DNA from: a virus
Virus record (IMG/VR): IMGVR_UViG_3300013131_003358
Coordinates: 1 to 49,118 of that record
Direction: 5' to 3' (one strand)
DNA length: 49,118 nt
The position numbers were made by a program, and so were the translations under genes. Shown piece after piece: positions 1,003-44,089 of the stretch (position 1 is the stretch's first letter; each line of letters opens with the position of its first letter). The notes beneath the pieces are model-generated. The model made no database searches. It was not told where the DNA came from and worked only from the letters and a program-made list of their open reading frames with translations.

Positions 1003-1085
1003 TGGTGGGGGTAGAAGGACTCGAACCTCCGAACCCGAAGGAGATGATTTACAGTCACCAGCAATTGCCGCTATGCGATACCCCC
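1003..1085 (-). tRNA. tRNA-Tyr (GTA)
   Basis: Class II tRNA with a long variable arm. The acceptor stem GGGGGTA/TACCCCC is perfect, the T arm carries GGTTCGAGTCC, and the anticodon loop reads CTGTAAA, giving anticodon GTA. The 3' CCA is encoded (1003-1005). It is the most promoter-distal tRNA of the minus-strand array. Confidence 0.95.
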
Positions 1086-1095
1086 ATGTTTAGTT

Positions 1096-1332
1096 TTAGT
1101 CTGGACTGATAATTAAATTGTGTACCCCATTGTCCATGAGTATATCTTGAAATTGAACACGTAAGTGTTGGATCATTTCTTTTTCCTTATCTGTTATAGT
1201 TTCATTATACTTATACATTTGGCGCATATACTCTTGAAAATCATTGATAGAACGTCTTAAAACAATTCCATTAATGGCGCATTGATGTTCGAATTCATCT
1301 TCGGGTAAGTCAAAGTGTAATGTTGCTTTCAT
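1096..1332 (-). CDS. Conserved small phage protein
   Basis: 78 residues lying inside the tRNA array, between tRNA-Tyr and tRNA-Trp. The N-terminus MKATLHFDLPEDEFEHQCA matches the pattern MKA-L-F-LPED seen in a widespread family of small phage proteins of unknown function; that recognition is from memory of the family. The middle (RSINDFQEYMRQMYKY) is likely a helix. No catalytic motif, membrane segment or signal is visible. The reading frame is the only substantial one in the gap between the two tRNAs, and it reads in the same direction as the array. Confidence 0.75.
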   Translation of the reverse strand: MKATLHFDLPEDEFEHQCAINGIVLRRSINDFQEYMRQMYKYNETITDKEKEMIQHLRVQFQDILMDNGVHNLIISPD

Positions 1333-1354
1333 AATATGTTCGCTTTTGAATTAG

Positions 1355-1427
1355 CGCGCTAGGTAGGACTCGAACCTACAACATTCGGTTTTGGAGACCG
1401 ACGCTCTACCAATTGAACTACTAGCGC
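1355..1427 (-). tRNA. tRNA-Trp (CCA)
   Basis: 73 nt without encoded CCA. The acceptor stem GCGCTAG/CTAGCGC is perfect, the D arm is GTTCAATTGGTAGAGC, and the anticodon stem-loop CGGTCTCCAAAACCG shows anticodon CCA. The T arm is GTAGGTTCGAGTCCTAC. Confidence 0.95.
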
Positions 1428-1442
1428 GTATTTTATTCTTTG

Positions 1443-1532
1443 TAGTCAGGACAGGATTCGAACCTGCAATCTTTGACATTCACTACTACTTAAAGCGTGT
1501 TTATGTGCGTCTACCAATTCCGCCACCTGACC
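1443..1532 (-). tRNA. Leu-type class II tRNA with an abnormal anticodon arm
   Basis: 90 nt. The acceptor stem GGTCAGG/CCTGACT, the Leu-type D arm (GCG...CGC around GAATTGGTAGA) and the T arm (GCAGG/CCTGT) all fold. The 38 nt between the D and T arms do not give a regular five-pair anticodon stem. The best fold is CATAA/TTAAG, with one A-A mismatch, leaving loop ACACGCT without the usual U33. A TTTAAGT stretch that could present TAA cannot be closed by a stem. A normal tRNA-Leu(TAA) is present at 2203-2291, so this one may be decayed or specialised. The anticodon is left unassigned. Confidence 0.7.
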
Positions 1533-1564
1533 TATAAGTTTTTAGAATACCCCCAGAACTTATA
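1533..1564 (-). other. Perfect 8-bp inverted repeat just 5' of the Leu-type tRNA
   Basis: TATAAGTT at 1533-1540 and AACTTATA at 1557-1564 are exact reverse complements separated by 16 bases. The hairpin abuts the 5' end of the tRNA at 1532. It could be a processing signal or a remnant of another tRNA. The DNA from 1565 to 1640 shows no gene I recognise. Confidence 0.4.
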
Positions 1565-1640
1565 AACTGTGCTAACCTACGATTTAGATGGGAGCAATTA
1601 GAGGCAACCCACGTCTTCGATTCCTGATCAAGGACTAATG

Positions 1641-1713
1641 AGCTTCTGAAAGGAGTCGAACCCTCAACCTACTGAGTACAAATCAGTTGCTCTACCAATT
1701 GAGCTACAGAAGC
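1641..1713 (-). tRNA. tRNA-Thr (TGT)
   Basis: 73 nt without encoded CCA. Acceptor stem GCTTCTG/CAGAAGC, D arm GCTCAATTGGTAGAGC, and anticodon stem-loop ACTGA TTTGTAC TCAGT giving anticodon TGT. T arm GAGGGTTCGACTCCTTT is slightly imperfect. Confidence 0.93.
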
Positions 1714-1718
1714 ATTAG

Positions 1719-1791
1719 AGTTTGTGGTGGGGCTTGAACCCACATCTCCCGAGTGATTAGCCCGAGTGCTTACCAGTTAGCGGACACAAAC
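1719..1791 (-). tRNA. tRNA with apparent anticodon AAT (Ile-type), unusual
   Basis: 73 nt with regular arm lengths. The acceptor stem is GTTTGTG/CACAAAC and the T arm is GTGGG TTCAAGC CCCAC. The anticodon stem TCGGG/CTCGG has two G-T pairs and closes a loop CTAATCA. Positions 34-36 therefore read AAT, which would be an Ile anticodon rarely used in bacteria, and position 37 is C rather than a purine. The sequence CACTCGGG occurs on both sides of the loop, so a local duplication may have distorted an ancestral Met- or Ile-like arm. Confidence 0.75.
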
Positions 1792-1796
1792 CTAAG

Positions 1797-1937
1797 GATC
1801 GTTTTTAAGGGACACTACCGGATATTTCACCTAAATAGTTTTAAACGATCAAACCCTAGCGGTTTCGGGTCTTTCGGGGTTTCTGGTTAAGTGCAATGAG
1901 TGACTTCCTACTATAAACCCTTTTTCGGAAATTAGTA
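1797..1937 (-). ncRNA. Structured non-coding spacer RNA between tRNAs
   Basis: This 180-base tRNA spacer has no ORF. It holds three inverted repeats in a row: GATCGTTT (1797-1804) with AAACGATC (1843-1850), immediately followed by AAACCC (1851-1856) with GGGTTT (1877-1882), then TACTA (1909-1913) with TAGTA (1933-1937). The first two stems would stack end to end. On the minus strand 1930-1960 also resembles a D arm (GGTAGAGTG). It may be a small RNA released during tRNA processing, or the remains of a tRNA. Confidence 0.35.
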
Positions 1938-1972
1938 CACTCTACCTCTTAACTACAGCTTCACTACCGCCA

Positions 1973-2049
1973 TGGTAGGGGCGACAGGACTTGAACCTGT
2001 GACCTTGATGATATAAGCATCCTGCTCTAACCAACTGAGCTACGCCCCC
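1973..2049 (-). tRNA. tRNA-Ile (TAT)
   Basis: 77 nt with encoded CCA (1973-1975). Acceptor stem GGGGGCG/CGCCCCT with one G-T pair, D arm GCTCAGTTGGTTAGAGC, loop CTTATAT giving anticodon TAT, which reads AUA. The outermost anticodon-stem pair is G-A. AUA-reading tRNAs are commonly carried by AT-rich phages. Confidence 0.92.
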
Positions 2050-2124
2050 AATTGATTGCACCTTTTTTAATTCGTAGAGGTGCAGAACGCGAAAAAAACA
2101 ATCGATACGTCAAAGAACAACTCG

Positions 2125-2198
2125 TACGCCCGACAGGATTCGAACCTGTGGCCCACAGCTTAGAAGGCTGTTGCTCTATCCTGCTGAGCTACGGGCGC
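2125..2198 (-). tRNA. tRNA-Arg (TCT)
   Basis: 74 nt without encoded CCA. Acceptor stem GCGCCCG/CGGGCGT, anticodon arm ACAGC CTTCTAA GCTGT with anticodon TCT (reads AGA/AGG), T arm ACAGG TTCGAAT CCTGT. A typical phage tRNA. Confidence 0.96.
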
Positions 2199-2202
2199 AT
2201 TT

Positions 2203-2291
2203 TGGTAGCCGGAGCGGGAATCGAACCCGCAAGACCAATTCTGGTCAACAGATTTTAAGTCTGTCGTGTCTACCAATTTCACCATCCGGCC
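2203..2291 (-). tRNA. tRNA-Leu (TAA)
   Basis: 89-nt class II tRNA with encoded CCA (2203-2205). Acceptor stem GGCCGGA/TCCGGCT, anticodon arm ACAGA CTTAAAA TCTGT with anticodon TAA, variable arm GACCAGAATTGGTC, T arm GCGGG TTCGATT CCCGC. First tRNA in the direction of transcription. Confidence 0.96.
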
Positions 2292-2386
2292 ATTTTATTA
2301 TTCGTCGTTACTTTCAATCTTTGTTAAACATATTAGCTTCAATTCACAATCATAAATATATGAACAAAACACATACGATCAAATCT

Positions 2387-2629
2387 TTATCCAACAATTT
2401 CTGTAACTTTTTCGATAAATGTTGTCTTACTAGACAAATACATTTTACGATAACGATCGGCAACTATTGTCGCATCCTCATATGAATCATAACGCCGCGG
2501 GTGTAAATCATTTACCACTCGCATAATACCGAATGCATAATGCTTTTCACGAATCATAAAAAATTCATGGCCGGCAAACTCATGCCGCTCAATTTCAATT
2601 TTAAATTTCTTCATCTTTCCAATTTTCAT
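2387..2629 (-). CDS. Small hypothetical protein
   Basis: 80 residues, of unknown function. Basic and His-rich N-terminal part (FKIEIERHEFAGHEFFM), then a mixed alpha/beta region with no motif I recognise. The upstream gene (2601-2747) overlaps the start. A second ATG at 2614 (MKKFKIEIE) would shorten the overlap from 29 to 14 bases and is equally possible; neither has a clear Shine-Dalgarno sequence. The stop is about 95 bases before the tRNA array. The tRNAs may be co-transcribed with this gene. Confidence 0.6.
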   Translation of the reverse strand: MKIGKMKKFKIEIERHEFAGHEFFMIREKHYAFGIMRVVNDLHPRRYDSYEDATIVADRYRKMYLSSKTTFIEKVTEIVG

Positions 2630-2747
2630 TTTTACGGTTATACTTAGTTTTATCGCCGTGATCTTTTTGAATCATTCGACGGCGCGCAAGTTGTGCTAGT
2701 TCACCTAATGTATATCCATCAACTATTTTTTTAGGCTTGTTGGCCAT
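2601..2747 (-). CDS. Small basic hypothetical protein
   Basis: 48 residues (MANKPKKIVDGYTLGELAQ...). The middle GYTLGELAQLARRRM is a likely amphipathic helix and resembles the first helix of a helix-turn-helix, but the protein is too short to call a regulator. It overlaps the upstream 2731-2898 gene by 17 bases and the downstream gene by up to 29, in the same strand-wise chain as its neighbours. Function unknown. Confidence 0.6.
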   Translation of the reverse strand: MANKPKKIVDGYTLGELAQLARRRMIQKDHGDKTKYNRKNENWKDEEI

Positions 2748-2898
2748 TATGGTATTCAAGATATAATTTAATAATTTCTAACGCAGCGAACGCCTTGCCG
2801 CTAGCACTAGCATGTTCATCCATTGTAGAAGCACTTTGGTTTGCTTCGATAGCTTTATCACAAAGATTGATAAGGTGTAGTCGATCGTTGCTGGTCAT
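2731..2898 (-). CDS. Small hypothetical protein
   Basis: 55 residues (MTSNDRLHLINLCDKAIEA...), acidic-neutral and almost entirely predicted helical, with no recognised motif. It starts eight bases after the stop of the 2907 gene. It is terminated by TAA inside the next small gene, overlapping it by 17 bases. The tight overlap and same-strand chaining are the main support for it being real. Confidence 0.6.
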   Translation of the reverse strand: MTSNDRLHLINLCDKAIEANQSASTMDEHASASGKAFAALEIIKLYLEYHNGQQA

Positions 2899-2906
2899 GA
2901 GATCTA

Positions 2907-3170
2907 TTATTTATGAATGATGTTAGACTTTTCTGTATAACGATTAGCACGTTTGGATCGCGTACGGTTCAATCGGATTGAAATGCCGGCATAAAACCCT
3001 AGCGCCGATGACATCAAACATACCGCCGCAAATACAATTTCGCTATCAATACTACTAAAGCCGATTGTCTCAGTCAACATACCCGTCGCGGTTGATACAA
3101 ATCCTACCAAGCCTACTAGGCCGACAATAACCGGCGGATGAAGTTCAATAGTAGCAAGTTTAGTCTTCAT
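2907..3170 (-). CDS. Two-span membrane protein
   Basis: 87 residues from MKTKLATIELH. I chose ATG 3170 over the longer frame starting at 3242 because AAGGA lies about seven bases upstream of it. Two hydrophobic segments at about 12-30 (VIVGLVGLVGFVSTATG) and 40-62 (IVFAAVCLMSSALGFYAGI) are joined by a short loop, and the C-terminus is basic (RLNRTRSKRANR), which points to the cytoplasm. The size and layout are compatible with a holin, but no lysis gene is directly adjacent (the transglycosylase is about 1.7 kb upstream), so holin is only a possibility. Confidence 0.65.
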   Translation of the reverse strand: MKTKLATIELHPPVIVGLVGLVGFVSTATGMLTETIGFSSIDSEIVFAAVCLMSSALGFYAGISIRLNRTRSKRANRYTEKSNIIHK

Positions 3171-3248
3171 TCTAAAATCCTTTTGGTTTTTAAACATACT
3201 TAAAGATAAGTACATATTATCACTTATACAACCTTTTTGCAAACTTTT

Positions 3249-3707
3249 TTACTGATTTACTAAATAATCTGCCGCTCGCGAAGCTATAACCTGATCTGGC
3301 TTAGTTATCACACGTACGCCTAGACTAGATGCCCATCCGGTGGCCAATGCATGTAGTTTATAACTATAAAATCGTTCATCAGCATTTACATCGATATCTA
3401 CAGCGTATATCTCAACTGGTATATGTTCTTTAAACCAACTTACAAAGTTCATTAAACGTTCAATTTCAGCCATTAAGCGTTGCCATTTCGTGGTTGGTTT
3501 TGCAGTAACATCTTTATTGTAAATATAATGCACTCCGTTATTGCCATATCTAAATGCAATAACTAATGCATAACGACATTCATCGCCGCGTACTTTACTA
3601 TCAATGCCAATATAGATTTTAGTATCTGGCCGATATGTAATTTGTTCCATTACATAGTTTGATAGACTTGGTATTGGCTTACGTGTAGTGCCGTGTCTAA
3701 ATACCAT
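3249..3707 (-). CDS. RNase H-like protein of the YkuK/DUF458 type
   Basis: 152 residues. Residues 30-55 (KIYIGIDSKVRGDECRYAL) match the first strand of the DUF458 RNase H-like family, with Asp36 in the usual catalytic position. A second acidic cluster, VDIDVNADER, lies around 103-112, and a C-terminal Asp is present in RAADYLV. Family members are predicted nucleases without a settled role. The start overlaps the stop of the HNH gene at 3707 by one base (TAATG), so the two are translationally coupled. Confidence 0.75.
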   Translation of the reverse strand: MVFRHGTTRKPIPSLSNYVMEQITYRPDTKIYIGIDSKVRGDECRYALVIAFRYGNNGVHYIYNKDVTAKPTTKWQRLMAEIERLMNFVSWFKEHIPVEIYAVDIDVNADERFYSYKLHALATGWASSLGVRVITKPDQVIASRAADYLVNQ

Positions 3708-4228
3708 TAATATGAATTTTTCATTCGGCCGCCTAATGGATTGCCGACATTAAGATAATAACAATTATAACAAAGAAAGCGTAAATTTTCGCGTCTATGA
3801 TTGGTAGGATCACCATCGATCCAATCTAATAGCAAAGGCACTGTATAATCCGTCACTCGACGTTCCTCGAAACCACAACATTCACACTTTTCCTCAAAAA
3901 TACCGTTACGTAATAACCTAGGACGAAGTTTATGTCTACTATAATTAGGATACTTCCCATCCAATATTTCTAATAAACCGTAACGGCCTAATAGTCTAGC
4001 ACTTTGTGGCTTCGAGACGCCTTTGCCCACTTGATTTTTGTGCAACTCAAATAAAGTCTTACCGGTGGCTGAATCAACGTACATGGATGCATACTTACGA
4101 AACGTCTCATATGAGATCTTAAGGAATCGCGATGCGCTCAAACATGATTTAGTATTTTCCATAGCATAACGAATCTCTGACTCAGAGATGTTCATGCTAG
4201 GACGACCTTCGGCTAACTTTCGGCCCAT
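3707..4228 (-). CDS. HNH endonuclease-like protein
   Basis: 173 residues. A C-terminal zinc-bound HNH-type domain shows CECC at 115-118, then DWIDGDPTNHRRENLRFL and CYNC at 153-156. The D-x-DG...N-H...NL pattern with two Cys pairs is that of HNH nucleases found as phage homing enzymes. The N-terminal 100 residues contain a helix-turn-helix-like stretch (SCLSASRFLKISYETFRKY) that may bind DNA. Shine-Dalgarno AAAGGA precedes the ATG. It may be a free-standing homing endonuclease or a host-directed nuclease. Confidence 0.8.
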   Translation of the reverse strand: MGRKLAEGRPSMNISESEIRYAMENTKSCLSASRFLKISYETFRKYASMYVDSATGKTLFELHKNQVGKGVSKPQSARLLGRYGLLEILDGKYPNYSRHKLRPRLLRNGIFEEKCECCGFEERRVTDYTVPLLLDWIDGDPTNHRRENLRFLCYNCYYLNVGNPLGGRMKNSY

Positions 4229-4229
4229 G

Positions 4230-4526
4230 TTATCCTTTCAGTAGTTCTTTACTAATTTTAATATTTCGCCATGACTCAGCACGTTTTCTATCAATATATG
4301 CACGCTCCTCATCCGTCAATGATGCATAAAATATTGAAAGTTCGTCGATATCTAGGCGTAGAAATGTTTGCCATACATCACGTTCAGCCTCATGTATTTC
4401 ATAACGATCCAACACTGCATGCAGTATTGTAGTAGCCATTGGCGGGACATGTACCGCCATTACATCCATGGCTTCATACCACTCTGTAACAATATAGCTA
4501 CTTGTTACAATATCTTTATTGTGCAT
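4230..4526 (-). CDS. Hypothetical protein
   Basis: 98 residues from MHNKDIVTSS. This start (4526) is preferred to the longer frame from 4604 because GGAG lies nine bases upstream and it overlaps the previous stop by only 11 bases. The protein is mostly helical, with an acidic C-terminal half (LTDEERAYIDRKRAESWRNIK). No motif recognised. It is followed after one base by the HNH gene. Confidence 0.65.
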   Translation of the reverse strand: MHNKDIVTSSYIVTEWYEAMDVMAVHVPPMATTILHAVLDRYEIHEAERDVWQTFLRLDIDELSIFYASLTDEERAYIDRKRAESWRNIKISKELLKG

Positions 4527-4866
4527 ATACTTCTGCTCCGTTTTCATTATCTTCAAATACCGATACATATTCACATGCGAAAAATTGCAACACTTCTTTT
4601 GCAATCATCTCACATGATTTAGCACCAAACCAATGGCATCTATATGACATATCAAAATACTTGTCACGAAAGTATTGTTCAATGTCACGTTTAAACATAA
4701 TAAACTCTACATCCCTGTCATCATGATTAACACGTTTCTTGGCTGTAATATGAAATATATGCCTATGAGGATCGGAAAGGAATCCTACCTCAGGGACAAT
4801 TTTTTTAGCATCAGGCCATGAATGTAGGCCCTCAACTTGAAGTTTTACAATTACATTTGTTATCAT
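4516..4866 (-). CDS. Conserved phage protein of unknown function
   Basis: 116 residues. Its features match a family of phage proteins I remember: an N-terminal HSWPDA, HRHIFH, HDDRDVEFIMFKRDIE in the middle, SCEMIAKEVL, and a C-terminal VSVFEDNENGAEV. The three-stranded layout and the His pairs recall the pterin-synthase (T-fold) superfamily, but I cannot confirm a catalytic role. The family occurs across many unrelated tailed phages. The gene starts three bases after a TTATATTTAA motif. Confidence 0.7.
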   Translation of the reverse strand: MITNVIVKLQVEGLHSWPDAKKIVPEVGFLSDPHRHIFHITAKKRVNHDDRDVEFIMFKRDIEQYFRDKYFDMSYRCHWFGAKSCEMIAKEVLQFFACEYVSVFEDNENGAEVYAQ

Positions 4867-4869
4867 GTC

Positions 4870-4880
4870 TTAAATATAAA
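4870..4880 (-). promoter_or_regulatory. TTTATATTTAA motif upstream of 4866
   Basis: Minus-strand TTTATATTTAA, one of a set of near-identical AT-rich motifs placed in the longer gene gaps, ending three bases before a start codon. Candidate phage promoter element; see also 6050, 31192 and 38577. Confidence 0.3.
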
Positions 4881-4883
4881 TGA

Positions 4884-5369
4884 TTAATTATTAGATTCCA
4901 AATATGTTTTTACTCTTTGCCAATAAATTTCAGTCGCTGTCTTAATGTAACCGCGGGGACCGCCATTCCAATTTCTAGAGATATGCTCATATGAATTGTC
5001 ATCATGATGGTATGATGCCCAAATCTCAAACATTTCACGTGATGCAATACAATTCCACCGATCTTGTAAATTATATCTATGCTCGATATTCTGGCGTTGC
5101 AATATGTCATTAACTTCTTGAACCATGATAGGGCAAATCTGCAGACAACCAACAGCGTCGGTACTAGCATTATATGCTAATTCATTACCCGAACTTTCAA
5201 CATGAATTAATGCGGCAATTAATTCATCATATCTATGCAGAAACTTCCACTTAAACGATCGTTCAACTTTAAATACTACATGATTAGCCGAAGGAAATGT
5301 AATTAAATACACTTGCGACATAAATACAATCGCGATAACAATTAATAAGCTTATAACTTTTTTCATCAT
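4884..5369 (-). CDS. Lytic transglycosylase-like peptidoglycan hydrolase with N-terminal anchor
   Basis: 161 residues. Residues 4-26 form a signal anchor or signal peptide (VISLLIVIAIVFMSQVYLI). The rest is a small SLT/goose-lysozyme-type fold: Glu58 in ALIHVESSG is the expected catalytic acid, followed by the family pattern DAVGCLQICP (usual form G-x-x-Q-I) and a C-terminal NWNGGPRGYIK with a Tyr in the usual place. It should cleave glycan strands in the periplasm during entry or lysis. ATGATG at the start overlaps the stop of the ClpS-like gene. Confidence 0.82.
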   Translation of the reverse strand: MMKKVISLLIVIAIVFMSQVYLITFPSANHVVFKVERSFKWKFLHRYDELIAALIHVESSGNELAYNASTDAVGCLQICPIMVQEVNDILQRQNIEHRYNLQDRWNCIASREMFEIWASYHHDDNSYEHISRNWNGGPRGYIKTATEIYWQRVKTYLESNN

Positions 5370-33792: not shown

Positions 33793-34722
33793 TTATTTTA
33801 TTTCATTTAACAATTTAACAATAGTTGCCATCATGTGCAACTCTTTATCTACTACAAATGCATCTTGATACTGCTGTTCAGCTAGAATCAATATAACACT
33901 TGCAATATGTCCTTTAGCATAATTATCAATTTCATCAAACAAATATTTGTATAGTGCCGTAAAATCTCTTACACGACTATCCGCAATGATTTGACGAATC
34001 GACTTAAATGCATCTTTTTTGTTTTGATCTGACATTAGTATTTCTAATACCTTTGTCATGTAATTTGCTTGAATTATACTAGTGGTATCTATAACTAATT
34101 TACCACTAATAACCTGCCTCTGGCATGAGTTTAATACACGACGTATATCCGGATATCCGGCATTAATGATAGAGACAAGATCTTCTGTCGCATACTGAAT
34201 ATTCAAGCTTTGTAGTATCGATACAATGCGCTTTGCTACTTCCTTTTTATTTGGAGGTGTTATTCCGAATACCTGGCATCTACTTTGTATAGGATCAATA
34301 ATTTTTTCAACGTAGTTACATGTCAATATAAATCGTGTAGTTGTACTAAATGTCTCCATTAGATTACGTAATGCGGCTTGTCCATTCGGTGTCATGTAAT
34401 CTGCCTCATCCAAAATTACAATCTTCCATTTGCGAAAGCCGACGGTACTAGCAAAGTTTTTAATTTTCGTACGTACCGTTTCTACATTATTTTCATCCGA
34501 TGCATTGACATACATTACATCCGCATCTACATTATTTGCGATGATCTTAGCAAGCGTTGTTTTACCAGTACCAGCCTGACCATAGAATAAAAGATGCGGC
34601 ACATCGCCGGACTCAATATAAACTTTAACTTTATCGATTATAGCTTCATTGCCAACATAACCGTCTAAGGTATTTGGCCTAAAAGCCTCGACCCATAGTG
34701 AATTTTCTTGTTTACCGTACAT
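33793..34722 (-). CDS. Clamp-loader large subunit (AAA+), T4 gp44-like
   Basis: 309 residues from MYGKQENSLWV; this start leaves one base after the dUTPase stop, whereas the longest frame begins at 34758 inside dut. LWVEAFRP at the start, Walker A GQAGTGKTT at 48-56, Walker B VILDEAD at 102-108, sensor 1 TCNY at 134-137 and the SRC arginine finger near 147-149 are those of RFC/gp44 subunits. Uses ATP to load the gp45-like clamp (35171) together with the gp62-like protein (31463). Downstream lies groEL. Confidence 0.93.
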   Translation of the reverse strand: MYGKQENSLWVEAFRPNTLDGYVGNEAIIDKVKVYIESGDVPHLLFYGQAGTGKTTLAKIIANNVDADVMYVNASDENNVETVRTKIKNFASTVGFRKWKIVILDEADYMTPNGQAALRNLMETFSTTTRFILTCNYVEKIIDPIQSRCQVFGITPPNKKEVAKRIVSILQSLNIQYATEDLVSIINAGYPDIRRVLNSCQRQVISGKLVIDTTSIIQANYMTKVLEILMSDQNKKDAFKSIRQIIADSRVRDFTALYKYLFDEIDNYAKGHIASVILILAEQQYQDAFVVDKELHMMATIVKLLNEIK

Positions 34723-34723
34723 A

Positions 34724-35164
34724 TTACTTTCCCGTTGATCCATATCCTCCTGTACCACGATCGGTCTCAGTTAAGTCGTCAGCTTGAATCATATTGACTT
34801 CTGGATACGGTAATATAAGTAATTGTCCGACGCGATCACCATCTTGATATCGTTTTAATGATGCAAAATAATTCTTTTTAGGAAATTTATACCGAAATGT
34901 AATTTCACCGCGATATCCGGAGTCAACAACGCCAACACAGTTAGCTAAGCTAATATCTGTCTTTGACACTGACGATCTAGGAAAAAGTAATCCTACGTGC
35001 CCAGCTGGTATCTCAACGGCTAGGCCTGTGTAGTATTCTATAAAATTATGCGTCGTGTCAATTTTATGTGCAATCGCTGTTATATCCATGCCGGCATCGC
35101 CAGGCTTTGCATAACACGGCGTCACTGCATTAGGTGACAATTTTTTGAATTTAACGTCTAACAT
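34724..35164 (-). CDS. dut: dUTPase (trimeric dUTP nucleotidohydrolase)
   Basis: 146 residues with all five family motifs: PGDAGMDITA at 21-30, PRSSVSKTDI, GVVDSGYRGEI with the catalytic Asp, GDRVGQLLIL, and C-terminal RGTGGYGSTG. Converts dUTP to dUMP, keeping uracil out of DNA and feeding thymidylate synthase (1-540). Placed between clamp and clamp-loader genes. The length is typical of trimeric enzymes. Confidence 0.96.
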   Translation of the reverse strand: MLDVKFKKLSPNAVTPCYAKPGDAGMDITAIAHKIDTTHNFIEYYTGLAVEIPAGHVGLLFPRSSVSKTDISLANCVGVVDSGYRGEITFRYKFPKKNYFASLKRYQDGDRVGQLLILPYPEVNMIQADDLTETDRGTGGYGSTGK

Positions 35165-35170
35165 GTAAAA

Positions 35171-35908
35171 TTAACTTGCTTGTAATTGTACCAAGTAATA
35201 TGTAGTTTTATATTCGCCAGCCTTTTCAAAGCTAACTTTAGCCAATCCGGCGGATGATACTTCGAGTGAACCCGAATCAGCATCTTTATTAGCTGTTAGA
35301 ATTTCTTTGAACAGATTGGATGAAAAACATGTTACGCTCATATCCGAACATGACTCGCTATTACATGGCAATGAGAATTTAATACGATTTGTGTTAATAG
35401 ATGAATAATTAATAATCATATCAACTTGGCCGCTTTTGCATGCAATTGCAAAATTTTCAGACTCTGGCAATGCATTTTTTGCTTTGATAAATTTAGTAGT
35501 AAAGTCTTTATCAATGTTAATATGTACATGCCAATCAGGTGTATTTTTTAGTTCTGGCACTTGCCGAATAACCGACAAGTCAGCTAACATAAATGTCATA
35601 TCCATATCGGCATCTTGAATACCAAGTGAAATTGCTTTATTGTCAATTGCCTTGATACTTACATTTACATCATCGTTAACCGCAGAAAGCATTTTTACAA
35701 GCTGAGGTGTTGCATATACGCCAAGCTCCATTGGAACTTTAGCGTCCATATCAGCTGTAATAAAGTTGCCTTCGCCAATTACATTTTGATCATCTGTAAT
35801 AAATTTAGTATTAATAACGCCGGTGCCTGGGACCTCCCATTTGACAGACGTTGTTGCGCCAGCCAAATGGTATCGGCTAACAAAGTTTAGTAACTGAGAT
35901 TTTTTCAT
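35171..35908 (-). CDS. Sliding clamp, T4 gp45-like
   Basis: 245 residues. LGVYATPQLVKMLSAVNDDVNVSI matches the T4 gp45 region (AIYDLNGFLGILSLVNDDAEI), and the end TYYLVQLQAS matches its NYVVALEA end, placing it among the phage processivity clamps. Forms a trimeric ring that tethers DNA polymerase. It is in the order clamp, dut, gp44-like, groEL, zinc ribbon, gp62-like, an altered T4 45-44-62 arrangement. The gene overlaps the DpdA-like gene by 4 bases. Confidence 0.85.
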   Translation of the reverse strand: MKKSQLLNFVSRYHLAGATTSVKWEVPGTGVINTKFITDDQNVIGEGNFITADMDAKVPMELGVYATPQLVKMLSAVNDDVNVSIKAIDNKAISLGIQDADMDMTFMLADLSVIRQVPELKNTPDWHVHINIDKDFTTKFIKAKNALPESENFAIACKSGQVDMIINYSSINTNRIKFSLPCNSESCSDMSVTCFSSNLFKEILTANKDADSGSLEVSSAGLAKVSFEKAGEYKTTYYLVQLQAS

Positions 35909-37110
35909 GATTTAGATTCTTCAAAAAACTGATTAAAAATATCTTTATTAATGGTTGTAATACTCTGCCCGCCAAATTTCTGATAGTACTGCTTATACTT
36001 TTCGTATACTGTTATTGCTTTATCCGGGTCCTCAAACATTTCATGAATACTTTTTAGGACTGCAGCAAGATCATCTGGCACCATATATTGTGCTACTTCG
36101 GGGTGGGCAGCGACAATTTTATTTACCTCTTTAATGGAATGTTGAAATAAATGTACATTATGCAATACCATTCGCGGCACGGCATCTCTGTTATATTCCT
36201 CTAGCATTCCCCATACGAAATCTTCACATGCTGGACAATCTAAACTGCAAGGCACCAAAACATCCTTTTCAAGTTCCGGAATATTGTCGCCTTTAGGCAT
36301 ATATACATCTGAGAATGATAGTTTCTTAATGTTATGTGAATGAAGATATGTTCCATATACAGGATACTGGCCTGGTGAACTTGAATCGGTCGTAACTGTA
36401 ATTCGATTGCCGTAATGTTTGTTAAGCAATTTTTGAATTGTTGCTAATATAAAGAAGTCCGATAGCTTTGATATACCAAGCAAGTGCATGTACTCAAGCC
36501 TAGTATTTTCAAATTCTCTGTTATTTAGCATTAGTGCCAGCGCCCACATAAAATCTACTAATTTCTGCGGACCGCCAATAGCCCAACCGGAAAATTCAAA
36601 ATGCTTAAATTTATGATACCACCAATCATATTCCTGAGGATTTGATCCTTGTAGCATGTTTAAAAACTTCGTCTTACCTGACTGATGCTTTTCGAACCAA
36701 GCAAAGTTATCATAACTGATATCAGCACACTGATAGAACTTATTTTCATATACCGTCTTAGGTGGAATATCTAAGTTAGCCGCAACATCTGAATTTGCCT
36801 CTAACCAATGAAAAATCTTTTCACGCAGGTCATTACTATATTTTAATGCACCTGTAGCAATCTGGTATCCACCCGAATCACCGAATACTAAAACGTCTTT
36901 ACCTAGGCCCATCTGTTGACGGATATCCATCTTTTTATAGTAGTGGCCTGCAGTGACTAGAAAATACTTATGTCTAAATTTTTCTGGGTATTCGTCAGAG
37001 TAAAACCGACATGTTACGCCAGATGACAATCGCTGGTCTTTAATCAAGGCCGAAGCAAATCCGCCGGCAGATAATGACGGAAAGTAGATAAATTCCTTTT
37101 GCTTATCCAT
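35905..37110 (-). CDS. dpdA: DpdA-like 7-deazaguanine DNA transglycosylase
   Basis: 401 residues. A TGT-fold enzyme: GDSGGYQ at 77-83 matches the TGT motif around Asp and GGFQ, NLDIPP at 112-117, SGWAIGGPQKLVDFMWAL around 174-191, MHLLGISKLSDFF at 208-220, TTDSSSP at 240-246 with a candidate nucleophile Asp242, and a zinc site Cys288, Cys292, Cys295 with His317 or His320. tRNA-guanine transglycosylase motifs on a phage replication operon, with FolE, QueD and QueE genes in the same genome, indicate DpdA, which exchanges guanine in DNA for a 7-deazaguanine. A tRNA-directed role is the alternative. Confidence 0.85.
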   Translation of the reverse strand: MDKQKEFIYFPSLSAGGFASALIKDQRLSSGVTCRFYSDEYPEKFRHKYFLVTAGHYYKKMDIRQQMGLGKDVLVFGDSGGYQIATGALKYSNDLREKIFHWLEANSDVAANLDIPPKTVYENKFYQCADISYDNFAWFEKHQSGKTKFLNMLQGSNPQEYDWWYHKFKHFEFSGWAIGGPQKLVDFMWALALMLNNREFENTRLEYMHLLGISKLSDFFILATIQKLLNKHYGNRITVTTDSSSPGQYPVYGTYLHSHNIKKLSFSDVYMPKGDNIPELEKDVLVPCSLDCPACEDFVWGMLEEYNRDAVPRMVLHNVHLFQHSIKEVNKIVAAHPEVAQYMVPDDLAAVLKSIHEMFEDPDKAITVYEKYKQYYQKFGGQSITTINKDIFNQFFEESKS

Positions 37111-38164
37111 TTAATACTTTTTGTAAATTATCACATGAGAAATAATGGTCATGAAGAAATTCGCTTTGAGCTTTAATAGCCTGCTGCAATTCTTCATATT
37201 TCGCCATCATAACTCTAATATATTTAACTAATTTTGATTTATTGCGAATATATGAACTATATGATTCAGTCCACTCACTTGGATACTTAAAAATATCATC
37301 ATACATTTCAGAGTAACTTAGACGATCGGGAACTAATGCCATAGCACCGGCTACCAAACCTTCATAACATGAAATACCCAACGTTTCTTGCAAATTAGCT
37401 GAAAATACTAATTTGGCCTTAGATAACAAAGTATGATACTGATATTTAGATAGATGACCTTCTTGGCATACTACAAATCTATATTCAGGCAATGCCAATG
37501 CTAAATCCTTAAAAATTTCTACTTGTTTTTCCGGAGCGATTCTATGAGGAAACAAAATTAGCTCTTCTTTATAGCCTGGCGTAATAATGTCACGTACATA
37601 TTCCATTGGCCATCCGGTACGATAACATTTGATATCTGCATGATTATACACGGACTGAAACAACTCAATATGATAATCTGAAGCAAACCAATTATAGTCA
37701 ATTGCTTTAGCTAAAGCATTTTCCGTATCCTTTACCCATGAATCAGTAATTAATCTGCCCAAAAAATCATTCTTATCGTAATTACCAGCATGCCATAGGC
37801 CATGTATAATAACAGGAATACCTAACAACTGGCTCATATACTTTAACTGTAAAATAGTAGGATTCCATGCATCAGTATATATAAAATGGTCACCCGCCTT
37901 AACTTTATTGTCTGTGAATAGACGTGCAATTTGCATCATCTGATCACTCTTATAAATGTTTGTTCCGCCGAAGTTTAAAAATGCACCGGGCGTTGTAGCA
38001 GCTGGAATATCACTAGGCCCTGAAATTGTAACAACTTGTTTGACTGTTACTGTTTCTTGTAGTAAACGAGGAATATGGACTTTCCATTGTGCTGTATATC
38101 TAGTTTCTACAGGTTCTAGATCTACTATGTATATCGTAGCATCACTTGTCATGTTTATATCCAT
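37103..38164 (-). CDS. Glycosyltransferase (GT-B) overlapping dpdA
   Basis: 353 residues. KEELILFPHRIAPEKQVEIFKDL opens a donor lobe as in GT4 enzymes, YRFVVCQEGHLSKYQYHTLL follows, and FSANLQETLGISCYEGLVAGAMALVP contains the donor-binding E-x7-E-like spacing. HGLWHAGNYDKNDFLGR lies in the acceptor lobe. It overlaps the DpdA-like gene by eight bases and lies 7 kb from the glycan island, so a role in decorating modified DNA bases, rather than surface glycan, is a reasonable inference. Confidence 0.78.
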   Translation of the reverse strand: MDINMTSDATIYIVDLEPVETRYTAQWKVHIPRLLQETVTVKQVVTISGPSDIPAATTPGAFLNFGGTNIYKSDQMMQIARLFTDNKVKAGDHFIYTDAWNPTILQLKYMSQLLGIPVIIHGLWHAGNYDKNDFLGRLITDSWVKDTENALAKAIDYNWFASDYHIELFQSVYNHADIKCYRTGWPMEYVRDIITPGYKEELILFPHRIAPEKQVEIFKDLALALPEYRFVVCQEGHLSKYQYHTLLSKAKLVFSANLQETLGISCYEGLVAGAMALVPDRLSYSEMYDDIFKYPSEWTESYSSYIRNKSKLVKYIRVMMAKYEELQQAIKAQSEFLHDHYFSCDNLQKVLNG

Positions 38165-38609: not shown

Positions 38610-38672
38610 TTAAAATGCAAAAAATTTATTTAAATTATTGTTTTCTGGAATACGGCCCCAATTCATTGCATC
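38610..38672 (-). other. In-frame extension of DNA polymerase beyond a TAA stop
   Basis: After the polymerase stop (TAA, 38673-38675) the same frame continues for 20 codons to TAA at 38610-38612: DAMNWGRIPENNNLNKFFAF. Marine T4-like polymerases end in a comparable way (a conserved GW region, then a hydrophobic clamp-binding tail such as L-x-x-FF). The extension therefore looks like the true C-terminus cut off by one stop codon. A TTA to TAA change, readthrough or a sequence error would each explain it. Confidence 0.55.
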
Positions 38673-41090
38673 TTAAAAATCATTTAGTTTGTTTTCAAAT
38701 GACGACTTAAAGATCTTGTCATGATCAATATACTTTTTAATAAAGTCAACAATGATATCTGGATCATCATGTCCTTTCATAGCCATGGTTTCTAAATTCA
38801 TGGAGTTGGGCTTGACATATGTCCATTTAATTTTTTCCCCATCTAGAATTTCACGTATATTTTTAATGCCGTGAAATTGAAGCATATCATTGTAATTGAT
38901 CGCAGACTTTACATGAACCGGTGTGCCTTTTGCTGGCGGAGAGAATGGCGCGGACTTTTTTGGCTTAAACTTAGATATTTGTTTAACGCCAACCGGAAAC
39001 ATAATCTCAAGCAACTCACGATGTTTTATCGATTCCTTAAAATTTAAGATTTTTTCATCCAAGCTTTCTTTACTAATGTCGTTTAGTATATCTTCTAATA
39101 CCTCTGCCATAAATTTACGAAATGCCGGCGGGAATGATGATCGTACAACATCTAACCCTTTAACATCGAGTCTAGAGATAGTATGGCCTTCTTGATTAAT
39201 CAGCCATTGGGCATATCGTTTTTTTGCAATCCATAAGCCAGCCTTTGCGACAAACTCTTGTTTGATATCAAATCTATGAGTAGAAACATTATGGAATTTA
39301 ACGGCATACATATTATATGCGGTATTGATAAATGACTGCACTTCTCCGGCGATTTCTATAGTTTTCTCCGCCATCCATGCCTCATCCTTAATATCAAAGT
39401 CCGGATATCGCTTTTCTATTAATGGCAAAGATGAGAAAAATGTTGAGTCTGTATCAGTATATATACAATAATCTTTATCAGCGCCTAATTCCTTTTTGTA
39501 ATATTGATTTCCAATATCTGCCGTAAATTTAATTAGTTGCTGGCCGGTACTTGTAATTGCAACCGCATTATCTGGATCAAAAAATCTAAAGCCTGGAGTT
39601 CCTAATACACCGTAGAATGAGTTAAGCAAAATTTTAGTCACTAACTGCATACGATCATAATACTCAGCCTTAGCAGCATCGCCCTGCTTTTCATATTGTT
39701 TTTTTAAATTTTTAAATTCAACGCGTTCATCAAACCATTTACGAAGAATAGATGGGAGGAAGCCGTTAATTGTTGTATTGTACACCACACCATTTGCTGC
39801 AATAGAATACGAATTTTTTTCTAAATAACCGCGCAGCGCTGTGCTATCCTCCCACCCATTCCAACCGTCCGTATAATGATGGCCCGTATTTTTTACATAT
39901 TTATTGCCATCAAAATTATTTATCTTCGTAACTTTAGTTTCCGGAGATATGTTAAGTGTCATAATGATACTAGGATACAATGATGTCAAGTCAAGGTCAT
40001 ATACCCATTTATATCGCCCCGGAGACGGGGACTTAACATATGCCCCCATTAAGTCGACAGATTCTCCCGACTCTCGTTGTGCACGGCTTGGTGCTACAAT
40101 ATTATTACGTTTTAAGTACGTTAATGCAGCGCCGTCTAGATAACGTGTAGCAAACAAAAAGTCTTCATATGGAACATGGCCTTTATGACAAATACCACGA
40201 GCCAAATCAATCAATTTCATTTTTTTATCTAGTTCAACGACAAGATCTACGTCATTAATATTGTAATCAACATACTTTTGAATATCTGTCTTTAACAATG
40301 TATCCAACGTGCCATCATACTTAATTTTACCTTTACCCAACTCTTTCTGCGAAATAGCTTCTAACGAGTAGCTCGACTCCTGAGAATATGTAAAGTTCTT
40401 ATACAATGCCATATAGTCTAAACATGACACGCCAGAAATGCGATACCTGTTACGATGCTTTAGCCATATGACATCTGATATTGGTGATAGTTTACGTGCA
40501 AATGTATCGCCCATTACTTTTGACATGCGATTGAATAGATATGGAATATCGAAAAAATCAATGTTCCATCCCGTAATAATCGTAGGAGCAATTTCATGAT
40601 ATTTACTCATAAACTTTTGTAGCAACTCATATTCATTACGGCATGAAACCGTACTTAAATTGCCGCTACGCATATTTGGTACTTGACCACTCGGGTCTAG
40701 AATCCATACAAATTTTTTATCACCGCTGGCATCATAAATTGCAATAGATGTAATTTCATTTTCCGCAGTTTCAGCAGTAGGAAATCCATCTTCAACATCA
40801 ACCTCAATATCTATAAACAATGTTCTATGACCTACTGACGATTCGTCTGAATCTGTATACAAATCAATCAATGTACGAGTTTCTGGATTAACATCATTTT
40901 CATATAATCCTTGCTCATGCTGATCAATATCCGTTACTTTGTTAACACGTTCGCCGTCGAGTGCAACAAACGTACCGTATGTAGATTTACGATATGCATA
41001 TGGTTTGTATTTAAAATTATAATAACCTTTAATATCATCCCAGATGTGAATGCTATTGTCGTTATTTCGATATGCTATCGCTTGATACAT
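38673..41090 (-). CDS. DNA polymerase, family B (T4 gp43-like)
   Basis: 805 residues. 3'-5' exonuclease motifs: FIDIEVD at 92-98, GWNIDFFDIPYL at 174-185 and YNINDVD at 276-282. Polymerase motifs: DLDLTSLYPS at 365-374 (A), KILLNSFYGVLG at 486-497 (B), YTDTDS at 544-549 (C, the two catalytic Asp). Shorter than T4 gp43 (898). The stop after LNDF precedes an in-frame tail with a likely clamp-binding motif (38610-38672). Replicates the phage genome with the gp45-like clamp and 44/62-like loader, and should proofread. Confidence 0.96.
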   Translation of the reverse strand: MYQAIAYRNNDNSIHIWDDIKGYYNFKYKPYAYRKSTYGTFVALDGERVNKVTDIDQHEQGLYENDVNPETRTLIDLYTDSDESSVGHRTLFIDIEVDVEDGFPTAETAENEITSIAIYDASGDKKFVWILDPSGQVPNMRSGNLSTVSCRNEYELLQKFMSKYHEIAPTIITGWNIDFFDIPYLFNRMSKVMGDTFARKLSPISDVIWLKHRNRYRISGVSCLDYMALYKNFTYSQESSYSLEAISQKELGKGKIKYDGTLDTLLKTDIQKYVDYNINDVDLVVELDKKMKLIDLARGICHKGHVPYEDFLFATRYLDGAALTYLKRNNIVAPSRAQRESGESVDLMGAYVKSPSPGRYKWVYDLDLTSLYPSIIMTLNISPETKVTKINNFDGNKYVKNTGHHYTDGWNGWEDSTALRGYLEKNSYSIAANGVVYNTTINGFLPSILRKWFDERVEFKNLKKQYEKQGDAAKAEYYDRMQLVTKILLNSFYGVLGTPGFRFFDPDNAVAITSTGQQLIKFTADIGNQYYKKELGADKDYCIYTDTDSTFFSSLPLIEKRYPDFDIKDEAWMAEKTIEIAGEVQSFINTAYNMYAVKFHNVSTHRFDIKQEFVAKAGLWIAKKRYAQWLINQEGHTISRLDVKGLDVVRSSFPPAFRKFMAEVLEDILNDISKESLDEKILNFKESIKHRELLEIMFPVGVKQISKFKPKKSAPFSPPAKGTPVHVKSAINYNDMLQFHGIKNIREILDGEKIKWTYVKPNSMNLETMAMKGHDDPDIIVDFIKKYIDHDKIFKSSFENKLNDF

Positions 41091-41350: not shown

Positions 41351-41854
41351 TTAAATTTTATAAATGTTTCTATAATTTCGCTTTAAAGAATTGTCATCAA
41401 ATCCGTAACCTATTACCCACTCATCGTCAATTTCAAAACAAGTATGATCAGCTGGCATATGCGTATTTTTACGTTGAACTAATGTAACTACTTTAACCTC
41501 TGCCGGCATATGACTTGATACACGTTGCAAAATTTCTACCATGGTATTACCCGAGTCAATAATATCTTCGATAATGTAAACCCGTTTTCCTTTAAGATCT
41601 ACTTCTATCTCTTTAGTAAACGTAACTCCTTTGCTATTATCTTGTCCATCGTATGATTTGGGCCGAATAAAGTCTACTTGTATATCGATACCCATATCAC
41701 GTACGAGATCCGTAAAAAACATAAAGCCGCCGTTTAATACACATACCAGTACTGGCGGTAGTGAATTACCGCTATTTTTATGTTCTTCTGAGAGTTTGTG
41801 TGCCATGGCACGTACTCTACGTTCAATCTTATACTCAGGAAATAGAATTTCCAT
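41351..41854 (-). CDS. hpt: Hypoxanthine phosphoribosyltransferase
   Basis: 167 residues. VLVCVLNGGFMFFTDLVRD near 35-52, a flexible loop with KSYDG, and the PRPP-binding motif RVYIIEDIIDSGNT at 91-104 identify a type I purine phosphoribosyltransferase, with a C-terminal DDEWVIGYGFD that binds the base. Salvages hypoxanthine/guanine to nucleotides. Its ORF overlaps folE by 20 bases, so it shares an operon with the deazaguanine genes; it could raise the GTP supply for FolE. Confidence 0.94.
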   Translation of the reverse strand: MEILFPEYKIERRVRAMAHKLSEEHKNSGNSLPPVLVCVLNGGFMFFTDLVRDMGIDIQVDFIRPKSYDGQDNSKGVTFTKEIEVDLKGKRVYIIEDIIDSGNTMVEILQRVSSHMPAEVKVVTLVQRKNTHMPADHTCFEIDDEWVIGYGFDDNSLKRNYRNIYKI

Positions 41855-42512
41855 AACCTCTCACAAATTCGTAAAACTCGTTTCTAGTTGCGGCATCATC
41901 TTTAAATGCACCCGTCAATTTACTAGTCTTCATACTAGCCCCGCCATGCTTTACACCACGACATTGTACGCAATTATGTGTCGCTTCAATCATAACAGCA
42001 ACACCTTTATTATCATCAATAATAGTGTTTATGGCATGGTGTATTGCAACAGTTAACTGTTCTTGGATAGCACCTCTTCGACCAAAGTGCTCAACTAATC
42101 GATTTAGCTTGCTAAGCCCGACAACTTTACTATCTGTTCCCGGAATATATGCAACATGTACTCTACCCATAATTGTCTGGTGATGATGAGAGCACATACT
42201 AGTTAATGGAATGCCTCCCTCAAATACCATACCATCATACCCATCGCTAGGAAAAGCTGTGATGTCAGGCGCGCCTTCATATCGGCCGGCCCATAGATCA
42301 TTAACATAGGCTTTGGCTACGCGATATGGCGTCTTATCGGAGTTCGGATCATTTCGCCAATCACATTTAAGTGCATCTAGAAATTTACCAAATGCATCGG
42401 CAGCTGCATTAATCATATCAGCCTTTTCGCTTTCTGTCAGAGGACGATTCGTCGCAATGCCATTTGCAAATCCGGCAGTAACAAGCTCTAAGTTATGAGC
42501 ATCACTCATCAT
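41835..42512 (-). CDS. folE: GTP cyclohydrolase I
   Basis: 225 residues. KTPYRVAKAYVNDLW at 60-74, SMCSHHHQTIMGRVHVAYIP at 105-124 with zinc ligands Cys107 and His110, VGLSKLNRLVEHFGRR, and HNCVQCRG at 179-186 holding the second Cys of the zinc site. Converts GTP to 7,8-dihydroneopterin triphosphate, the first step of folate and of 7-deazaguanine synthesis. In a phage with queD, queE and dpdA the second role is the more likely. Overlaps groES by 11 bases and hpt by 20. Confidence 0.96.
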   Translation of the reverse strand: MMSDAHNLELVTAGFANGIATNRPLTESEKADMINAAADAFGKFLDALKCDWRNDPNSDKTPYRVAKAYVNDLWAGRYEGAPDITAFPSDGYDGMVFEGGIPLTSMCSHHHQTIMGRVHVAYIPGTDSKVVGLSKLNRLVEHFGRRGAIQEQLTVAIHHAINTIIDDNKGVAVMIEATHNCVQCRGVKHGGASMKTSKLTGAFKDDAATRNEFYEFVRGYGNSIS

Positions 42513-42802: not shown

Positions 42803-43573
42803 TTATACTCCTCTTTTTGTATCGTATGCAATAATATGTTCTCTACCGGTAAAATTATATCCGTGTATAGCACACATTTCAAATACTTGTGGATAAATAT
42901 TAATTAGTTCTTGACGATTATCGCCCGCGGGCATAATCCATGTTTTATTTTTTGGGATATCCATCTTAACTCGAAAAGCCTCAATTTCTTGCAATGTCTC
43001 TTCTGTGCCATCCCATACAGGCTTGTAATGATAATCCGTATGATACTCGATCATCTTTTGAATTGCTTCATAATTAAGTCTATGCCTGTTATGCGTATCA
43101 ATGAATTTTTCGTCCACCACTTTACCAGCTGGCGTAGTGATACCGACACGAGGGACAGAATTATTAAACTTAGGGCTAAGGGATACGAGGCCAATCGGAT
43201 AATCAGTGGAAACGAACTGCGACCCCTCTGTTTCGATCGTGATGGTAATGTTCCGTTCATGTGCAAAATGCGTTAATTCATTAACAAGTGCTGGATGCAT
43301 TGTGGGCGATCCACCTGTTAACATCATTTCTGTGACATGTGGATACTTATCATATATTGCAATAATATCGTTAAACGTAAATACGCCTTTCTCCGGATGG
43401 ATACTTGTATACCATGAATCGCACCAACCGCCTTCGCCGAACCAGCATCTATGCGTACAGCCGGTAGTTCGTACTGCAATCGTTGGCATACCGGCGCGAC
43501 TACCTTCACTTTGAACACAAAGATATAGTTCTACTATAGGCAATGTTTTATTGTAATCTTCTACTCTACTCAT
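42803..43573 (-). CDS. queE: 7-carboxy-7-deazaguanine synthase, radical SAM
   Basis: 256 residues. PIVELYLCVQSEGSRAGMPT is the typical QueE opening (F-S-QGEG). The 4Fe-4S cluster Cys residues are Cys39, Cys43 and Cys51, spaced Cx3Cx7C rather than the common Cx3Cx2C, followed by DSWYTS. MMLTGGSPTMHPAL holds the GGxP motif for SAM and IETEGSQ the substrate Glu. Converts 6-carboxy-tetrahydropterin to 7-carboxy-7-deazaguanine. Ends one base before groES starts. Confidence 0.93.
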   Translation of the reverse strand: MSRVEDYNKTLPIVELYLCVQSEGSRAGMPTIAVRTTGCTHRCWFGEGGWCDSWYTSIHPEKGVFTFNDIIAIYDKYPHVTEMMLTGGSPTMHPALVNELTHFAHERNITITIETEGSQFVSTDYPIGLVSLSPKFNNSVPRVGITTPAGKVVDEKFIDTHNRHRLNYEAIQKMIEYHTDYHYKPVWDGTEETLQEIEAFRVKMDIPKNKTWIMPAGDNRQELINIYPQVFEMCAIHGYNFTGREHIIAYDTKRGV

Positions 43574-43608: not shown

Positions 43609-43619
43609 TTAATATAAAT
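43609..43619 (-). promoter_or_regulatory. ATTTATATTAA motif between queD and queE
   Basis: Minus-strand ATTTATATTAA, identical to the copy at 29845, beginning at the queD stop and about 35 bases before queE. Candidate promoter for queE-groES-folE-hpt. Confidence 0.3.
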
Positions 43620-44089
43620 CATTCACTATAGCTAGCACTATTTCGATCATGTTCATACACTTCTACTTTAATAGCTTTAACTCTACCGTTAGTCTCAACT
43701 TCTAAAAATTCATTAATTTTTTCATATAGAAACTCAGCAAACCGTTCGCAGCCGACCGCGGGCAACACTCTCAATTGAATCACGCCCATTCGATCTAACT
43801 GCCTAAACATCTCAAGTTGCGGGTCATCTATCGCAACTAATGTTGTATGATCTAAAAGCCATGCAAAATAATCTTTGGGAGGACGGGTGTCAATTGACGA
43901 CTTTGCGCGTTTCATACCGCCAAAGTCATATACCCAATTACGTTCATCTAGTTCGCCTTCAAACCAAACGCGAAATGATACAGCATAACCATGTAAATAC
44001 TTGCAATGGGTTCCCTCAGCTTTCCATTGTCTAAAACAAGCTGAATACCCATCGAATAATTTTGTCGACTGAAATTTTTTAGACTTCAT
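43619..44089 (-). CDS. queD: 6-carboxy-5,6,7,8-tetrahydropterin synthase
   Basis: 156 residues. GTHCKYLHGYAVSFRVW at 26-42 matches the C---LHGH strand of QueD/PTPS with Cys29 as the catalytic residue and His33 as a metal ligand. The second His of HGH is Tyr35, and the AAH ligand at residue 18 is Cys, so the metal site differs from E. coli QueD; such a form with FRQW is known to me from other phages. WVYDFGGMK, LDHTTLVAIDDP and VEVYEHDRNSASY complete the T-fold. Makes the substrate of QueE. Its ATG overlaps the stop of the 44089 gene. Confidence 0.9.
   Translation of the reverse strand: MKSKKFQSTKLFDGYSACFRQWKAEGTHCKYLHGYAVSFRVWFEGELDERNWVYDFGGMKRAKSSIDTRPPKDYFAWLLDHTTLVAIDDPQLEMFRQLDRMGVIQLRVLPAVGCERFAEFLYEKINEFLEVETNGRVKAIKVEVYEHDRNSASYSE

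Follow-up and report, generated by a model that had tools for sequence, protein, structure and literature searches.

The closest described counterparts of the polymerase considered here are the gp43 enzymes of T4 and RB69, which are family B replicative polymerases with a short hydrophobic motif at the C-terminus (SLDFLF in T4; PMC12746103) and with a phage clamp and clamp loader adjoining. In T4, these last gp43 residues occupy the gp45 pocket (PMC12746103; see also PMC3012046), and, in the part of PMC12746103 that cites Berdis (1996), gp43 deprived of its last six residues is described as showing no association with the clamp. A comparable ending is found in the gp43 of the cyanophages P-SSM2, S-CRM01, and S-CREM2, where ..IGW..TLDDFF stands at the same place as, and resembles, the AMNWG..NLNKFF of the present locus; this agrees with the first-pass annotation, according to which marine T4-like polymerases end with a GW-like region followed by a hydrophobic motif. 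These cyanophage enzymes are only ~32–34% identical over the matched region, and have no stop before the tail. In Synechococcus phage S-CREM2, gp43 is naturally split (positions 1968–4911 of its record), its annotation giving a subunit A and a subunit B separated by a hypothetical gene of 297 bp. The closest phage record by protein search is the polymerase of Microcystis phage Mel-JY01, which is 43.5% identical over the whole query and ends in FYDALGWTFPSESNKNLSKFFNFK; unlike the enzyme analyzed here, it is full-length and has Tyr where the latter has a stop.

The DNA analyzed, hereafter the window, is the whole of a 49,118-base virus record. The features on which the argument turns are the following:

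38673..41090, minus strand: T4-type (gp43-like) family B DNA polymerase, 805 amino acids as read, with exonuclease and polymerase domains.
38673..38675, minus strand: in-frame TAA at residue 806, where every relative has Tyr (TAT/TAC).
38610..38672, minus strand: severed C-terminal tail DAMNWGRIPENNNLNKFFAF with its own TAA (38612–38610), a predicted clamp-binding segment, conserved in relatives and with a dN equal to that of the polymerase body.
35171..35908, minus strand: intact sliding clamp (DNA polymerase processivity factor), phrog_223 (E=1.4e-10), with full-length matches in relatives; presumed partner of the tail.
33793..34758, minus strand: intact clamp loader ATPase, phrog_168 (E=1.6e-82), 76–87% identical to its relatives.
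1003..1085, minus strand: tRNA-Tyr (gta) from the tRNA search, an ordinary Tyr decoder and not a UAA suppressor.

The polymerase assignment is supported by the PHROG match (phrog_262, E=1.9e-187), by the Pfam exonuclease and polymerase domains (PF03104 and PF00136), and by RB69 gp43 as the best PDB match (E=1.5e-75), and the phage encodes both a clamp and a clamp loader of its own. The reading frame closes with ...FKSSFENKLNDF and TAA (38675–38673), after which frame 0 stays open for 20 codons up to the second TAA; the ending in LNDF-TAA and the continuation of the frame are as they had first been described. If full length, the enzyme would have 826 residues, against 903 in T4/RB69 gp43. As assembled, the tail lies outside the reading frame, in frame after the stop, which is not the case in T4/RB69 gp43, and its motif reads NLNKFFAF, compared with the NLGKFF type of the relatives. 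The body remains a gp43-type polymerase, and only the tail is lost. Since the tail lies in frame 0, a frameshift at TTTTTAA can be set aside. Translation starting again from the ATG that comes three codons past the stop would yield nothing but an unattached peptide of 18 residues, and this Met, being frequent among relatives, represents no new feature.

An open extension of at least 20 codons after the stop is present in 15 of the 66 window genes, part of these being inflated by overlapping genes, and the length of the polymerase extension alone is thus not unusual; it is the homology to relatives that makes it non-random. The tail pattern, with the position of the stop open to every codon that begins with T, occurs once in the window, as opposed to zero occurrences expected from shuffled window sequence. 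The relatives' polymerases run through the stop point with 21–22 matching residues. Among 80 related loci from a viral-contig search, 77 reach the C-terminus, and all 77 show Tyr followed by the tail. When these are pooled with the loci of a Tyr-pattern scan, which were selected for having Tyr, 191 viral loci with 123 distinct sequences are obtained, with TAT in 110, TAC in 13, and no other codon. The unselected evidence for Tyr is therefore that of the 77 viral-contig loci and of a pair of scans of viral records, in which the tail pattern with TRR (the three stops and Trp) gave no match and the same pattern with TAY at least 120, although the records nearest the window were perhaps not covered. 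A looser scan for the stop pattern gave six matches, none of which is a polymerase tail. Among the records scanned, the stop is private to the window contig.

In 69 distinct tails of 21–22 residues, Y806, A808, and F824 are invariant and W811, G812, P815, N817, F823, and F826 nearly so, the consensus of the nearer relatives being FY.A[ML].WG..PENNNLGKFF.F. The tail is kept in all relatives examined, down to ~48% identity. By this alignment, polymerases of this family genuinely end with the segment past the stop, which bears out the earlier description of it as conserved and in frame; a lack of conservation of the downstream codons in relatives had been named as the observation that would speak against this, and those codons are conserved. 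The derivation of the stop from TTA by one change does not hold, since all relatives carry TAT or TAC at this position and never TTA. Judging from these codons, the ancestral residue is Tyr and not Leu, and a single base change turns a Tyr codon into TAA.

The role of the tail can be approached by comparison with T4. Judged by where it stands and by its pattern, with L..FF close to the end, the severed tail very probably corresponds to the clamp-binding peptide of T4 gp43; the clamp-binding function proposed at the outset is most likely right, given the encoded clamp and loader and the binding of T4 gp43 at the same C-terminal position. A true stop should be costly, judging by the effect of losing the last six residues in T4 gp43. 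A real stop would leave a poorly processive polymerase, and an error or a short-lived mutant is therefore favored over a working arrangement.

The age of the stop has been estimated from the nearest relative (L001), whose polymerase is 85% identical in protein to that of the window. In this pair, dS in the body is ~1.8 and thus close to saturation, and dN has the same value of 0.11 in body and tail; the total of ~5 differences in the tail is the number predicted by constraint alone. With a branch dS of ~0.9 and 49 nonsynonymous sites, ~44f extra amino-acid-changing substitutions would be expected, f being the fraction of the window's own branch that postdates the stop and is unconstrained, and a rough Poisson limit (a hand calculation with no fitted model) places f below ~0.12. 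Such a comparison indicates that the tail has been translated until very recently, or still is. Since dN is the same in tail and body, there has been no time for the tail to decay, and the stop is either very recent, an error, or read through.

The reading that we consider probable is that of a one-base consensus error, from sequencing or assembly, in an ordinary full-length T4-type polymerase of 826 residues, whose conserved Tyr codon is shown as TAA. The polymerase of the actual phage population would then extend to ...NKFFAF, with this tail as its means of binding the sliding clamp. Both the error, as opposed to a real mutation, and clamp binding by the tail are what we infer. In favor of an error are the Tyr codons of all 123 distinct relatives, the scan pair, and the undecayed tail, together with the state of the other genes. 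Six related contigs, whole or in part, served for comparison with the window genes, ~20 of which have no homologue there; over the shared stretches, no internal stop or frame break was found in the other genes with a homologue, and, of the genes compared, only the polymerase falls short of all its relatives by ~21 codons and yet matches them right up to its end. The remaining alignments with stops, judged by where they lie and in which strand and frame, apparently involve the opposite strand, another frame, or 5′/3′ extensions of the relatives' frames. Isolated breaks or stops elsewhere in the polymerase gene are also present in three public contigs, namely L058 (~residues 556–570), L141 (~325), and L174 (~171). 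These may be errors or split genes, and public contigs thus contain isolated breaks of this kind, if at a low rate. On the other hand, the window contig is otherwise clean and its error rate not visibly high, and its sequence offers nothing by which an error could be told from a true mutation of very recent origin.

A real and very recent nonsense mutation is accordingly ranked next, as a possibility less likely than an error, the division between the two being a matter of judgment. The polymerase would lack its last 21 residues, clamp binding would be weakened or lost, and the variant would be transient, defective, or complemented in co-infection. A single substitution suffices, neither the remainder of the gene nor the other genes compared show damage, and the undecayed tail sets the rough upper limit given above (~12% of the window's own branch) on the age of the stop; but a strongly deleterious effect is expected, no second genome with the stop has been found, and an exact-tail search gave no near-identical record, although the records nearest the window were perhaps not covered. 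Far less probable is a lineage that has no need of the tail, with a clamp that contacts the polymerase otherwise or is not needed. The stop itself and the normal constraint on the polymerase body would be compatible with it; however, the genome retains a clamp and a clamp loader, both conserved, and the tail is undecayed here and retained across the relatives.

Programmed or tolerated readthrough of the TAA, by which a longer polymerase that binds the clamp would arise beside a shorter one that does not, was the explanation first proposed, and is about as improbable. It would account for a conserved in-frame tail under normal constraint past the stop, but no relative carries the stop, and a stop shared by relatives with a conserved frame downstream is accordingly not found. 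Nor does the window show a stimulatory RNA structure or a suppressor tRNA: the fold around the stop is no stronger than that of shuffled sequence (z = −0.02), there is neither a repeat nor a terminator-like structure near it, and none of the eight tRNAs of the window reads UAA, the tRNA-Leu with anticodon taa reading TTA. General recoding is excluded, TAA being the terminator of 44 of the 66 window genes; a code with a reassigned stop was ruled out on the same count, TAA being the commonest terminator and no other relative-matched gene being interrupted by it. The two polymerase forms are thus not supported, and the alternative that had been offered beside them, mutation or assembly error, explains the private stop better. 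Of similarly low probability is a TAA that is real in this single lineage and leaky enough to supply a minority of clamp-binding polymerase beside the clamp-free form.

Other observations were made along the contig. The eight tRNAs form a cluster at 1003–2291 (minus strand), one of which, called as Ile, has the unusual anticodon aat (1718–1791) and is not listed by Rfam at the gathering score. Four minus-strand genes (35905–37110, 41835–42512, 42803–43573, and 43619–44089), coding for a GTP cyclohydrolase I, a QueE-like radical SAM protein, a QueD-like protein, and a 401-amino-acid protein (35905–37110), likely constitute a 7-deazaguanine modification set. The 401-amino-acid protein has no Pfam or PHROG match; it carries the motif DSGGYQ, matches tRNA-guanine transglycosylase weakly (E=0.0038), and is possibly a DpdA-like DNA-modifying enzyme. 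It is 95% identical to its L001 homologue, compared with 73–79% for the immediate neighbors, which reflects either unusually strong conservation or recent exchange. In the related contig that carries L002, an in-frame stop divides the homologue (L219) of the window gene at 37103–38164, a glycosyltransferase-like gene, into two ORFs.

The stop in the polymerase gene thus has the look of a newly arisen mutation or a sequencing error, and not of a regulatory switch. If readthrough were true, it would represent a new way to tune the processivity of the replisome. The lesson of the locus is that conserved in-frame sequence past a stop does not speak for readthrough unless that stop is also present in relatives, and the case documents a strongly conserved C-terminal polymerase tail in a group of uncultured T4-like phages.
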